From: Cellulomonas sp. 73-145
Lineage (GTDB): Bacteria; Actinomycetota; Actinomycetes; Actinomycetales; Cellulomonadaceae
Reading direction: 5' to 3'
DNA: 64,000 bases
NCBI GenBank assembly: GCA_001898185.1
Contig: MKTI01000010.1
Location: forward strand, 205,737 to 269,736
The translations under genes and the position numbers were made by a program. The notes beneath the pieces are model-generated. The model was not told the origin of the DNA. It saw only the letters and a list, made by a program, of their open reading frames with translations, and ran no database searches. Below, piece by piece: positions 35,268-38,627 of this stretch (positions are counted from its first letter, which is position 1; the number at the start of each line of letters is the position of its first letter).

Positions 35268-35435
35268 CCACGACCCGACCGACGCGGACGCCCCTGAGAC
35301 AACCGTCGCAAGGCCGTCCGGAGCGCACCGCGTCGGAATTGATCGGATCTTCTTCAGGCTGACCCGCGCGTGGCGTCGACGATATAGCCGGCACTGCGCG
35401 CGATGCGGGCTAACCCCCGCGGCACGCAGGGACCC

Positions 35436-36413
35436 TCAGACCGGTCGCGGCTCTTCCCCGTCAAGAGCGGCCAGAGCCGCGCCTGGGTGCACGATGAGCT
35501 CGAGCAGGCCGCTTGTTCGCCGCGCCCACCGCGCTGGATCGTCCTCGTCGTCGAAAGCCGCGCCCCACGTGAACTGGTCGCGGAGATTGACCGGCAGGCG
35601 GCCCGCGAGTGTCGTCATCAGTTCCTGGCCGGCCCGGATTCGCGGTGAGGGAGGCGGCAGGGGAAACAAGCTGCGTCGCTTGGTCGCCGGCGCAACGACT
35701 TCTGGCGCATCGCCGAGAGCCGCGACAGCACTCCGGACCCAGTCGTCGTCGCCCGCGTCGGCGAGCGGGACGGCGACTCGTTGAACGCTGATTATCGCGT
35801 CCTGGCCCAGTGCCAGGGAGAGTCCCCCGGGGTCCTCGTGGTAGTTCAGATAGCGAGCGACATCGACGCCAGGTGGGCAGACGGCGTCGAGCGTGACGTC
35901 GCCGACGAAGTTGCTCGGGTCGACAAGCCAACCATCTCGCACCACGACGGACGGCTTGAGGCGCACTCGGTACAGGTAGAACTGGCTGGCGTGATCGGCT
36001 TGGTCGTGGATGCGCCTCAGCATGTTGTGGACCGCAGCTTCGTATGTGCCGACGTGGAGCGCCTTCGCCCGCTGGTACGCCACCCACTCGGCGACAGTCT
36101 CTTCGCCGCCCATCCGGCTGCGGGTCAGCGCAGTCAGCCCGGCCGCCGGGTCGAACTGTCGCGCCGGCCAGTCTGGATGGGTGCTCGTGTGGTACCAGGC
36201 GAGTCGAGCGACCTGATCGTCATCGAGCGCGGGTTCGTCGGGATCGACCGTGACCCGGGGCGAGTCCTCGTGCTCGCACGTCGCGCCACAGCCTGGGCAC
36301 GACTCCTGCCCCTGTTCCCACCGGTCGATCCAGTCCAGGTCGACGACCCACCGCTGGTCGCAGCGTCCGCAGAGCATGTGCCGATCACGAGAGAAGTCAA
36401 TCTGGCGCTCCAT
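35436..36413 (-). CDS. Unknown protein: N-terminal zinc ribbon, middle domain with ADP-ribosyltransferase-like motifs
   Basis: 325 aa. Residues 1-45 carry two CxxC pairs (Cys15/18, Cys39/42), a zinc ribbon. Residues ~70-215 show, in order, WYHTS (His76), LHVGTYEAA (121-128), a strand FYLYRVRL and YLNYHEDPGGLS (Glu194). The order His ... G-T-x-x-A-A ... N-x-x-E-x-x-G-S/LS is what I know from ART-fold proteins that use NAD+. The last ~100 residues are unassigned and end in a Leu-rich helix. No signal peptide. It is divergent from the TIR/HIT pair and convergent with the metallopeptidase. Codon use is less GC-biased than in the flanks. The ART assignment is inference and needs a structure or profile search. 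Confidence 0.75.
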   Translation of the reverse strand: MERQIDFSRDRHMLCGRCDQRWVVDLDWIDRWEQGQESCPGCGATCEHEDSPRVTVDPDEPALDDDQVARLAWYHTSTHPDWPARQFDPAAGLTALTRSRMGGEETVAEWVAYQRAKALHVGTYEAAVHNMLRRIHDQADHASQFYLYRVRLKPSVVVRDGWLVDPSNFVGDVTLDAVCPPGVDVARYLNYHEDPGGLSLALGQDAIISVQRVAVPLADAGDDDWVRSAVAALGDAPEVVAPATKRRSLFPLPPPSPRIRAGQELMTTLAGRLPVNLRDQFTWGAAFDDEDDPARWARRTSGLLELIVHPGAALAALDGEEPRPV

Positions 36414-36510
36414 GGCTCCAGTCTTCCGGTGCGCGGGTGAAACTCACCCCGAACGCGTGTCAGCGGAAAGCTGGGCGTCTTAGGTGCCACTGACATTGAG
36501 CTTCAACCGC

Positions 36511-36540
36511 TGACGCGACGTCGGTGGTCGGCCCTACTGT
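36511..36540 (+). promoter_or_regulatory. Putative promoter of the TIR/HIT operon
   Basis: TGACGC (36511-36516) and TACTGT (36535-36540) are 18 bases apart, 50 bases before the TIR start. Unlike most core genes here, the transcript would have a leader with a GAAGGA ribosome site (36578-36583). Confidence 0.35.
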
Positions 36541-36589
36541 CGCCCTCAGGTCGAGAGCCACTCGGCCAACCCACAGTGAAGGACCATCG

Positions 36590-37078
36590 GTGGCCACAAA
36601 GACGGTGTTCTACTCCTTCCACTACGAGCGCGACGTCAACCGTGTGCAGCTCGTGCGGAACGTCAACGCGCTCGAGGGCCAGCCCCTGCTCAAGGCCCAG
36701 GAGTGGGAGGCAGTGCGGCGGCGCGGCCAGCAGGCCATTGTCGACTGGATCGAGAAGCAGATGAGCTACAAGCGGGCTGTTGTCGTCCTGATCGGCCAGG
36801 AGACCGCCAGCCGCCCGTGGGTGATCTACGAGATCGAGAAGGCGTGGCAGGCGAAGAAGCCGCTCGTCGGAATCCGCATCCACGGCCTCTCGTCGTTCGG
36901 AACCGTCGATCGCGTAGGTGCGAACCCGTTCGATAAGGCCTCGGGGCCATCCGGCATCCCCGTGTTCGATCCGACGAGGAAGGACTGGTGGAACGGAGGG
37001 ATCGACACGAAAGCGACTTACGCGAACCTCGCAGACAACCTTGAGGGCTGGGTCGCCCAGGCGAAGGCCCGCCCGTGA
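36590..37078 (+). CDS. TIR-like domain protein of the MTH538/DUF1863 type (ThsB-like)
   Basis: 162 aa from the GTG at 36590 (VATKTVFYSFHYERDV), chosen for the GAAGGA site just upstream. Strand A reads VFYSFHYERDV and is followed by VQLVRN; ThsB of Bacillus Thoeris opens the same way (VFFSFHY). AVVVLIGQETASRPWVIYEIEKAW gives the central strand and the helix that carries the candidate NADase Glu81 (quoted: WVIYEIEKAW), then PLVGIRIHGL. Such TIR proteins cleave NAD+ and make cyclic or histidine-linked ADP-ribose signals on infection. The stop overlaps the GTG of the HIT-fusion gene (GTGA), so the two products are made together. The defence role is inferred from family and pairing. Confidence 0.88.
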   Translation: MATKTVFYSFHYERDVNRVQLVRNVNALEGQPLLKAQEWEAVRRRGQQAIVDWIEKQMSYKRAVVVLIGQETASRPWVIYEIEKAWQAKKPLVGIRIHGLSSFGTVDRVGANPFDKASGPSGIPVFDPTRKDWWNGGIDTKATYANLADNLEGWVAQAKARP

Positions 37079-37983
37079 CAAGCACCACGTGTGAGTTCTG
37101 CGCGATCGTCGAGCGCGACGATCCCGACGTGCGCGAGGTGTACCGCGACGAAAACGTCGTGGCCTTCTTCCCGACAGAGCCAGCCGTGCTCGGACACGTA
37201 CTCGTCGTGCCGAGGCGACACGTGCCCGACATCTGGGGCCTCAAGCCCGACGAAGCCGCCCAGCTCTCGAGGGCCACGGTGCTACTGGCCGACGCGATCC
37301 GCGAGGCGATTCATCCCGAGGGGCTCAACGTCATCCAGTCCAACGGTGAGGTCGCAACCCAGACCGTCAAGCACGTCCACGTCCATCTCGTTCCTCGCTG
37401 GGGGAACGACGCTATGGGTCCGATCTGGCCAGCAAAGACGGACTACTCGGAGTCATCCAAAGAGCGCGCGATGCTCGGGGTCCGCAGTGCAGTGCGGCAC
37501 CTCCAGGCCTCAGCAGAACCCCCGATTGCGCCGGAAGACCGGCGCAAGCACCTCGACTACATCCAGGCCGTTGTAACGCGGCAGTCTGCCGCTTCGTCGG
37601 CAGCGAAGGGCTGGCTGCTGCCGATCGTCACCGCCACCTTCGGGTTCGCACTCACCCAGCACTCGTGGCCGCTGGCGGCCCTCGGCATGGTCGCCGTCGT
37701 GCTCTTCGCCTACCTCGACGCCAACTACCTGCGCAGTGAGAAGCAATTCCGACGGCTCTACAACACCGTCGCGCGCTCCAGCCGGCAGGTGCCGCTCTTC
37801 ACGCTCGATCCGGTGGACGCCGACGAGCCCGTCCCGGACGACGCGCCAGCCCTGCCCAGGTGGAGGGCGTTTGCCCGCAAGTACCTGCCGGAGCGGTCGA
37901 TCTGGACCTCATGGTCGATCGCACCGTTCTACACCGCCCTACTCATCCTGGGTGCAGGTGTGGTGGTTGTGTCGGCCATCTGA
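37075..37983 (+). CDS. HIT domain fused to a C-terminal membrane module; candidate effector of the TIR pair
   Basis: 302 aa. Residues 1-~145 are a HIT domain: CEFC (6-9) as a zinc pair, GHVLVVPRRHV (40-50) and the catalytic HVHVHLVPR (His100/102/104; His102 the expected nucleophile). HIT proteins bind and hydrolyse nucleotides on the alpha phosphate. Residues ~158-300 contain two close membrane helices (about 181-195 and 199-215), then LDANYLRSEKQFRRLYNTV, and a third helix (about 283-300). The block from LDYIQAVVTRQ to RRLYN resembles a small bacterial membrane-protein family I recall near TIR genes. Fusion of a nucleotide-binding enzyme fold to a membrane module, overlapping a ThsB-like gene, suggests sensing or processing of the TIR product at the membrane. 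No experiment is known to me. Confidence 0.85.
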   Translation: MTSTTCEFCAIVERDDPDVREVYRDENVVAFFPTEPAVLGHVLVVPRRHVPDIWGLKPDEAAQLSRATVLLADAIREAIHPEGLNVIQSNGEVATQTVKHVHVHLVPRWGNDAMGPIWPAKTDYSESSKERAMLGVRSAVRHLQASAEPPIAPEDRRKHLDYIQAVVTRQSAASSAAKGWLLPIVTATFGFALTQHSWPLAALGMVAVVLFAYLDANYLRSEKQFRRLYNTVARSSRQVPLFTLDPVDADEPVPDDAPALPRWRAFARKYLPERSIWTSWSIAPFYTALLILGAGVVVVSAI

Positions 37984-38286
37984 GGTTGGCCGAGACCACC
38001 TTCAGCCACCGAACCGCGGGGCCCGACGGGGCCGGCTACTCAGCAGGAACGTCCTCTTCCGAACCGTCCAGGTCCGAGGATCCGCTCGGCCTTGAGTCAC
38101 GGCCCGCCGTGCCAACTTGTCGGCGGACAACAGCCGCGGGTGACGCGGCATGCCTGCCCTGGGGTAGCGGGCTCACCAGCCAATGACGCTTCCGAGTCAC
38201 CCAAGGCCCAAGGGCCGACCTGCGAATCCGCACGTCGGAAGGTGCTCGCGCCGGTATCCCAACCGACGGAGTGTCCCCTGCAACCC
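37984..38286. other. 303 bp without a convincing gene, right junction of the islet
   Basis: It lies between the HIT-fusion stop and the end of the SUF operon. Frames through it give low-complexity or interrupted peptides with no family I recognise. No tRNA, transposase remnant or clear direct repeat is visible. GGGGCCCGACGGGGCC-type GC-rich inverted sequences near 38018-38035 might terminate the islet operon. Confidence 0.5.
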
Positions 38287-38627
38287 CTAGATGTTGAAGC
38301 CGATGGCCCGCATCTGCTCGCGCCCGTCCTCGGTGATCTTCTCCGGGCCCCACGGCGGCATCCACACCCAGTTGATGCGGAACGCGTCGACGATGCCGTC
38401 GAGCACCTGGGCCGTCTGGTCCTCGATCATGTCGGTCAGCGGGCAGGCCGCCGACGTCAGCGTCATGTCGATGGTGGCGGTGTTGGTCTGGTCCACCAGC
38501 ACGCCGTACACCAGCCCCAGGTCGACGACGTTCACGCCCAGCTCGGGGTCGATGACGTCGCGCATGGCCTCCTCGACGTCGGCTGCGGTGGCCGGCTCCG
38601 TGCGGGCGCCGGGGTTCTGGTCGATGC

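Follow-up and report, generated by a model that had tools for sequence, protein, structure and literature searches.

A TIR gene and a HIT–membrane fusion gene in Cellulomonas: a candidate Thoeris-like defence cassette whose HIT domain carries proline at the usual ribose-binding position

The DNA analysed here (the window) is a 64,000-nucleotide stretch of Cellulomonas sp. 73-145 (contig MKTI01000010.1, assembly GCA_001898185.1), and it carries two overlapping genes, one for a ThsB-type TIR protein and one for a protein that joins an N-terminal HIT domain to a C-terminal membrane domain (Table 1). A first-pass annotation of the sequence had described a 162-residue ThsB-type TIR and a 302-residue HIT–membrane fusion with a four-base overlap, and the open reading frames (ORFs), the shared GTGA and the Pfam matches bear this description out; the start residue of close relatives is about the same as that of the window ORFs. 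A fixed stoichiometry of the two products, which that annotation had deduced from the overlap, does not follow from it; the GTGA instead suggests translational coupling of the two genes. The combination of a TIR gene with a fused HIT–membrane gene recurs on plasmids and on chromosomes, so the pairing is not a matter of chance.

The N-terminal part of the fusion matches the Pfam HIT family (9.9e-21, residues 22–108), and its best match to a HIT protein of the PDB is at 2.6e-25. The CEFC and HVHVHLVPR motifs of the first-pass annotation are present, with the triad at H100/H102/H104, so that both the HxHxH triad and the family profile of the catalytic HIT superfamily are found. The C-terminal part matches the PADLOC family PDC-M50A (8.7e-21); it has no Pfam match and no solved relative among PDB sequences at E up to 1. 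The three hydrophobic helices described there in the first-pass annotation are borne out approximately. Two segments of the fusion protein, residues 198–216 and 284–302, exceed a hydropathy of 1.6 in 19-residue windows, and the third (~176–194) lies under that threshold in the window protein; in two relatives from other lineages (L004 and L041) three segments exceed 1.5.

Table 1. Features of the window that are discussed in the text (positions are those of the window)
Feature	Position	Strand	Details and basis
ThsB-type TIR gene	36590–37078	+	GTG start, 162 amino acids (aa); ORF and translation
HIT–membrane fusion gene	37075–37983	+	GTG start, 302 aa; ORF, Pfam, PADLOC
GTGA overlap of TIR stop and HIT start	37075–37078	+	sequence
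Glu81 codon of the TIR, predicted catalytic glutamate	36830–36832	+	alignment
HIT domain core, residues 6–119	37090–37431	+	Pfam, PDB HIT relatives, conserved columns C6 to P119
Pro33 codon, at the position of HINT1 Asp43	37171–37173	+	alignment
Histidine triad H100-x-H102-x-H104	37372–37386	+	alignment
PDC-M50A-type membrane domain, residues 150–302	37522–37980	+	PADLOC, hydropathy
3,020-bp insertion with the system, between the ypfJ-like gene and SUF-operon genes	35269–38288		genome comparison
P0003, passenger ORF, 325 aa	35436–36413	-	in the same insertion as the TIR and HIT–membrane pair

The HIT domains of the related systems (system HITs, below) differ from ordinary HIT proteins at a single telling position as follows. 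The catalytic and zinc-ligand residues (C6, C9, H49, H100, H102 and H104) are kept in 71/71 system HITs. Position 33 is Pro in all 71, whereas 20 ordinary actinobacterial HITs used as controls have Asp (16), Asn (3) or Thr (1), and the equivalent residue is Asp in all five PDB HIT relatives compared. In human HINT1 this residue, Asp43, is reported to bind the ribose 2',3'-OH groups in a bidentate manner, and His112 is reported to be catalytic (PMC11349198), so the ribose-binding Asp of HINT-like proteins is missing from every system HIT. Position 89 is Ser in 71/71 system HITs, and one HIT from outside the systems (L200) also has Ser89. W118 was dropped as a signature, being frequent in other HITs; Pro33 and Ser89 stayed. 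A quick tree of these 91 domains (71 system, 20 control; ~145 columns) separates all system HITs from the controls by one branch, with a Shimodaira–Hasegawa-like approximate likelihood ratio test (SH-aLRT) value of 92, which falls below the 95 that the tree program stars, and with a long-branch warning where systems and controls join.

A search with the HIT alone through 394 Actinomycetes genomes, of which the best 30 loci were compared, separated the two kinds of HIT by their neighbours. All five Pro33 loci (the window itself, the previously found G171 and three new ones) have the membrane gene within 1.5 kb, and four of them also a TIR gene, while none of the 25 other loci (23 Asp, 1 Ala, 1 Thr) has a membrane or a TIR gene; the probability of so exact a match between Pro33 and the membrane gene by chance among 30 loci is 7e-6. 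As Pro33 HITs made up the alignment used for searching, the ranking of the loci is biased, but their split by Pro33 is not. By these sequence comparisons the system HITs are a dedicated subfamily with a predicted alteration of the sugar-binding site. The change between the fused and the separate state needs three steps on the HIT tree, and a quick tree of the membrane domains (113 rows, ~145 columns, with long-branch warnings) needs two for the fused state and two for the presence of the HIT; such changes are few, and gains and losses are not distinguishable on these trees.

The window TIR matches Pfam ThsB_TIR (4.6e-24), PADLOC ThsB (2.1e-48) and PDC-M50B (2.9e-42), and, among solved structures, 8wcf (3.3e-30), 9b7d (9.8e-12) and 6lhy (1e-11). 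Its Glu81 is invariant in 64/64 aligned TIRs and in 91/92 of a larger set, where the exception is a fragment, and it aligns with E85 of Bacillus cereus ThsB (6LHY), which is described as catalytic and as required for the production of cyclic ADP-ribose (cADPR) isomers by auto-active ThsB (PMC10022894). A ThsB-type TIR with a predicted catalytic Glu, one mark of Thoeris in the broad sense, is thus present. The TIR family profile also has 8wcf as its best match, with strong matches to 6LHY (4.2e-39) and 9b7d; EcThsB2 (8V6T), a tyrosine-type ThsB (Tyr8) that is tied to effectors with transmembrane and macro domains (TM–macro) in the account of PMC11204291, is not among its sequence matches. In two enterobacterial plasmids (L177:2962-6140 and L178:2462-5640) a pair of neighbouring TIR genes precedes a gene for a patatin-like (CBASS-type) phospholipase, and the second of these TIRs is ~42% identical to the window TIR.

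How regularly these parts occur together was assessed in GTDB genomes, viral contigs and plasmids. Scanning GTDB yielded 174 pattern matches and 104 relatives, and 80 of the relatives were retained; loci were sorted with profiles built from earlier loci, and a TIR was sought within 3 kb. These 80 loci comprise 20 HIT–membrane fusions, 37 with a separate HIT gene (27 on the same strand as the membrane gene, 10 on the other) and 23 without a HIT, fractions that are not prevalences because the queries were the membrane domains of HIT-bearing systems and because only 80 of 104 relatives were kept. A TIR-type profile match is found at 19/20 fused, 22/27 same-strand, 6/10 other-strand and 20/23 HIT-less loci, and a TIR adjoins 48 of the 57 HIT-bearing loci (47 by profile, and L109 with a different TIR). 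If the window and L009 are set aside, 26 of 27 fused loci have a TIR within 3 kb (19/20 from GTDB, 2/2 viral, 5/5 from plasmids); the homologues are thus not the mostly TIR-less genes of metabolic contexts that would have spoken against the first-pass proposal.

The 19 viral contigs include two fusions, one HIT on the opposite strand and 16 loci without a HIT, and 15 of the 19 have a TIR match. Of the viral loci without a TIR-profile match, L041 (2.2e-5) and weakly L045 (0.0032) have a Pfam TIR-like neighbour, L039 has no Pfam match among its neighbours, and L040 lay outside that scan. In a phage collection the membrane part alone found three Vibrio records, and the whole fusion found, among the 15 of 20 records listed, HIT-part matches only, apart from a single weak longer one. 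A 14-kb Vibrio virus record (Vinavirales; L184:1347-2635) has a gene annotated as Thoeris ThsB followed directly by the membrane gene.

In the closest plasmid relatives, whose membrane part is 71–74% identical, a TIR gene is directly followed by the HIT–membrane fusion; they come from Gordonia, Mycobacteroides and two plasmids of Mycolicibacterium. A Rhodococcus copy adjoins DISARM drmD. On a Dietzia plasmid TIR, HIT and membrane protein each have a gene of their own, and the three genes overlap; an Arthrobacter, a Rhodococcus and a second Dietzia have the membrane gene facing TIR–HIT. Restriction-modification or DISARM genes are found in six of the ten plasmid stretches viewed, which is the proximity to defence genes that the first-pass annotation had asked about. 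The membrane profile occurs in only 9/396 genomes of the phylum, the window genome included, and so is sporadic. In a same-genus genome (L013:402-1782) the membrane gene faces a TIR and a HIT gene, and the HIT match is split over two frames. Millisia brevis has the system twice (L085, L087): one copy has TIR, HIT and membrane protein, and the other is a HIT–membrane fusion gene with no TIR nearby.

Other kinds of TIR also accompany HIT–membrane units, namely a large TIR protein (Streptomyces) and a TIR_2 protein (Glycomyces, L109). In two Nocardia loci (L089:7271-10537 and L090:7266-10532) a 1088-aa protein is encoded ~0.9 kb downstream of the HIT–membrane fusion, and it has TIR, TPR and AIR-synthase-like domains (by Pfam in L089 and by the TIR profile in L090). 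The membrane domain adjoins an SLOG-cluster-3 protein at L118:2032-3157, one of the 20 HIT-less loci with a TIR-type match and in its case a weak TIR-profile match only, and a nucleoside deoxyribosyltransferase-like protein in a cyanobacterium (L134:5983-6877); from their sequences it looks as if the membrane domain served several makers of nucleotide signals.

With which of its two partners does the HIT belong? The distance from the TIR stop codon to the start of the HIT profile is −10 to +21 bp in 51/51 same-strand pairs (four further pairs are on different strands), and because these genes abut, TIR and HIT are probably co-translated. No ORF of the census loci combines a TIR match with a HIT match, while HIT–membrane fusions are common. 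Over 47 loci (26 with separate genes and 21 fused), HIT distances correlate with those of the membrane domain at r 0.56 and with those of the TIR at 0.36 (95% bootstrap interval of the difference 0.03–0.31). With this closer link of the HIT to the membrane domain than to the TIR, a sensor-like role for the HIT may be entertained. We read the HIT from these comparisons as the middle part of the system, apparently leaning toward the effector side.

The window copy sits in an insertion. Three same-genus genomes (G422, G429 and G447) have 113, 112 and 86 bp in place of the 3,020 bp, with the flanking genes directly adjacent (flank identities with the window are 97 and 92% for G422 and 91 and 95% for G429; G447 is more distant), which makes the window copy a clean insertion. 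The G+C fraction at third codon positions is 0.79–0.88 in the genes of the insertion and 0.91–0.96 in four neighbouring genes. The best explanation of these sequence features is that the pair is a horizontally acquired cassette belonging to a mobile family. P0003, the passenger ORF of the insertion, encodes two N-terminal CxxC pairs and is present once in the genome; nothing above the cut-off was found for it in Pfam, PADLOC or NCBIfam, and no relative among PDB sequences. It was rejected as a third component, having no relative in any other locus compared, and probably lies outside the system.

Parts of this arrangement are already known. The C-terminal part of the fusion resembles PDC-M50A and the window TIR resembles PDC-M50B of the PADLOC candidate system PDC-M50, and, judged by profiles alone, the two matches lie in adjacent genes as in that candidate; the four matching PDC-M50A models (130–159 positions) cover the membrane part, and the window adds a fused HIT. 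The TIR and membrane pair is therefore a candidate already listed by PADLOC, to which actinobacteria add the HIT; PDC-M50 was not named in any paper found in the literature searched. PADLOC also has, as its 'Thoeris type II', a HIT gene called ThsC that accompanies Thoeris genes (167 systems, 2.4% of Thoeris, in the 2021 description), for which a role in forming or degrading the messenger, perhaps as an off-switch, is proposed there (PMC8565338). That type shares with the window a HIT gene alongside a Thoeris gene, but it adds the HIT to Thoeris systems bearing ThsA, and the window products have no ThsA match. A specific identification of the window HIT as ThsC was rejected, as the PADLOC ThsC profile is unspecific and scores six ordinary HITs (19–56 bits) nearly as high as five system HITs (45–64 bits).

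Among the established Thoeris types, type I (ThsB with a SIR2–SLOG ThsA, signalling by 3'cADPR) has a TIR of the same family, and on a Cereibacter plasmid a TIR 45% identical to that of the window adjoins a SIR2 gene; the two window proteins have no SIR2 or SLOG match, and the fusion matches only HIT-type Pfam families. A search of Actinomycetes for Pfam STALD (SIR2-type ThsA) gave 0/394, and is uninformative as its controls were silent too. Type II in the sense of Shi et al. and Sabonis et al. (TM–macro ThsA, with a histidine–ADP-ribose conjugate, His-ADPR, as messenger) is like the window in pairing a TIR with a membrane effector that has a nucleotide-binding domain, but that domain is a macro domain there and a HIT here, and no macro match is found in the window proteins. 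Type IV, reported as a TIR with a caspase-like protease and N7-cADPR (PMC12847820), likewise has an effector linked to the TIR in an operon, and the two window gene products have no protease match in Pfam, PADLOC or NCBIfam. A 'type III Thoeris' could overlap with the TIR and membrane pair. HINT and other HIT hydrolases share with the window HIT the family, the CxxC and His residues and the histidine triad, but have the ribose-gripping Asp where the system HITs have Pro, with Ser89 fixed. The first-pass claim of a Thoeris-like defence system is supported in part, by the TIR partner of the fused loci and by their mobile, defence-like setting; its remark that no described system of this composition was known to it is qualified by the PDC-M50 pair and ThsC. 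Neither TIR–HIT–membrane systems nor a Pro33 HIT were found described in the literature searched (mostly open-access, by listings and passages), so that the parts are known separately, and the combination and the Pro33 HIT are probably new to that literature.

We consider it very probable that the window pair is a TIR-type anti-phage system, and propose the following mechanism. The TIR would sense infection and turn nicotinamide adenine dinucleotide (NAD+) into an ADP-ribose-type messenger; the HIT, tethered in the window to the effector, would bind and cleave this product; and the membrane domain would be the killing effector, active only while the messenger is plentiful, after which it would reset. 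That the HIT acts on a nucleotide derived from the TIR seems, on balance, the better bet; that it does so as a self-limiting sensor, rather than in some other role, within an abortive-infection cassette is a reading that we favour tentatively and hold at somewhat under even chances. Effectors of the Csm6 and Can2 type, which degrade their own activator, offer an analogy. A pure sensor is disfavoured because the triad is invariant, and a mere scavenger because the HIT is joined to the effector.

The messenger would most likely be substituted at the ribose 2'- or 3'-OH, because the HIT no longer has the Asp by which these hydroxyls of the adenosine ribose are gripped. In 3'cADPR and 2'cADPR, described as 1''-3' and 1''-2' O-glycosidic isomers (PMC11204291), the linkage brings the second sugar to the point at which the missing Asp would bind, and for this reason we suggest one of these two as the putative messenger. 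A more specific proposal, which we think somewhat unlikely, makes the Pro33 HIT both a receptor for ribose-O-linked cADPR (2'- or 3'-cADPR) and a dedicated hydrolase that opens its ring. The fusion would then be a self-timing Thoeris-like effector and the HIT, by analogy, a ring nuclease of the CRISPR kind belonging to the host itself; and as several TIR types are found with HIT–membrane units, the HIT would read a messenger common to them.

Several observations weigh against a self-limiting sensor. Pro33 could mean a different base or sugar and not a blocked 2'/3'-OH. The membrane–TIR correlation (0.63) is the highest of the three pairs over the same 47 loci, and because it exceeds that of HIT and membrane domain, TIR and effector may couple directly; moreover, the excess of the HIT–membrane over the HIT–TIR correlation is not significant within the separate-gene (0.71 vs 0.58) or the fused (0.82 vs 0.52) loci. 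HIT-less TIR and membrane loci exist (20 of the 23 HIT-less GTDB loci, above), which shows that coupling of the membrane effector is possible in the absence of a HIT and that the HIT is not indispensable in the wider family. Nine of the 57 HIT-bearing GTDB loci have no TIR within 3 kb, and a genome-wide search found no ThsB-like TIR in eight of the nine genomes of TIR-less HIT–membrane loci (L109 included), a search that matched 3/3 positive controls and 0/2 Nocardia, which have a different TIR. Among the nine loci with no TIR within 3 kb, L065 is cut by a contig end and L117 has a TIR ~4.5 kb from the membrane gene; L109 and L117, which lack a ThsB-like TIR, have another TIR type nearby. The neighbours scanned at TIR-less loci were 60 of 207 candidate ORFs (110–600 aa; from L070, L072, L087, L109, L117, L121 and L132), among which PADLOC found one PDC-S66 match and no other, and unusual or longer TIRs could escape such a scan.

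These points bear on the alternatives as well. The HIT might sense nothing and only destroy leaked messenger, much as a ring nuclease does, while the messenger or the TIR activates the membrane domain; HIT-less TIR and membrane systems, the invariant catalytic residues, the abutting TIR and HIT genes (51/51) and the strongest correlation being that between membrane domain and TIR all agree with this, and an off-switch is among the roles that the PADLOC authors suggested for ThsC (PMC8565338). We nevertheless think it somewhat unlikely, as over all 47 loci the HIT tracks the effector more than the TIR and in the census it is fused to the effector and never to the TIR; HIT and membrane pairs also exist where a ThsB-type TIR was not found, and the membrane-domain tree needs only two changes in HIT presence, where frequent losses might be expected of a dispensable switch. 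The first-pass annotation had the HIT replace the sensor domain, so that messenger binding would open or cluster the membrane domain and catalysis would be irrelevant. Fusion to the effector in 20 of the 80 GTDB loci and covariation with the membrane domain agree with that, as does the analogy with the macro domain of type II ThsA, which is reported to oligomerise on nucleotide binding and is thought thereby to cluster the membrane domain (PMC11204291). The three His kept in 71/71 system HITs and the HIT-less relatives (20/80) make a sensor without catalysis improbable.

HIT proteins work through a nucleotidyl-histidine intermediate, and the HIT might accordingly turn what the TIR first makes into the true activator, or transfer adenosine monophosphate (AMP) from it onto the effector. 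An invariant triad and a gene located between those of TIR and membrane protein in collinear loci would suit such a converter, but HIT-less TIR and membrane systems would then need another route, and we hold it to be quite improbable. It is harder still to credit that the HIT physically restrains a toxic membrane protein until a TIR product releases it: the covariation of HIT and membrane domain and the occurrence of both convergent and collinear HIT neighbours would fit an antitoxin, but the fusion puts both in a single chain, HIT-less homologues live in many hosts, and the invariant catalysis is left unexplained. Least credible is a module of nucleotide metabolism or stress outside defence, to which the HIT and membrane pairs without a TIR might point; the sporadic distribution (9/396), the clean insertion of the window copy, the restriction or DISARM genes in 6/10 plasmid stretches and the Vibrio virus record with its ThsB-annotated TIR and membrane pair all argue against it.

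To our knowledge, little is known of how bacteria switch TIR signalling off. If the HIT is the self-limiting sensor proposed above, a membrane-acting branch would be added to TIR immunity, and this would be, as far as we know, the first host enzyme degrading a TIR messenger that is fused to a Thoeris-like effector. The Pro-for-Asp signature makes the chemistry of the messenger directly testable, and Pro33 is a marker by which such systems can be found from the HIT sequence alone.

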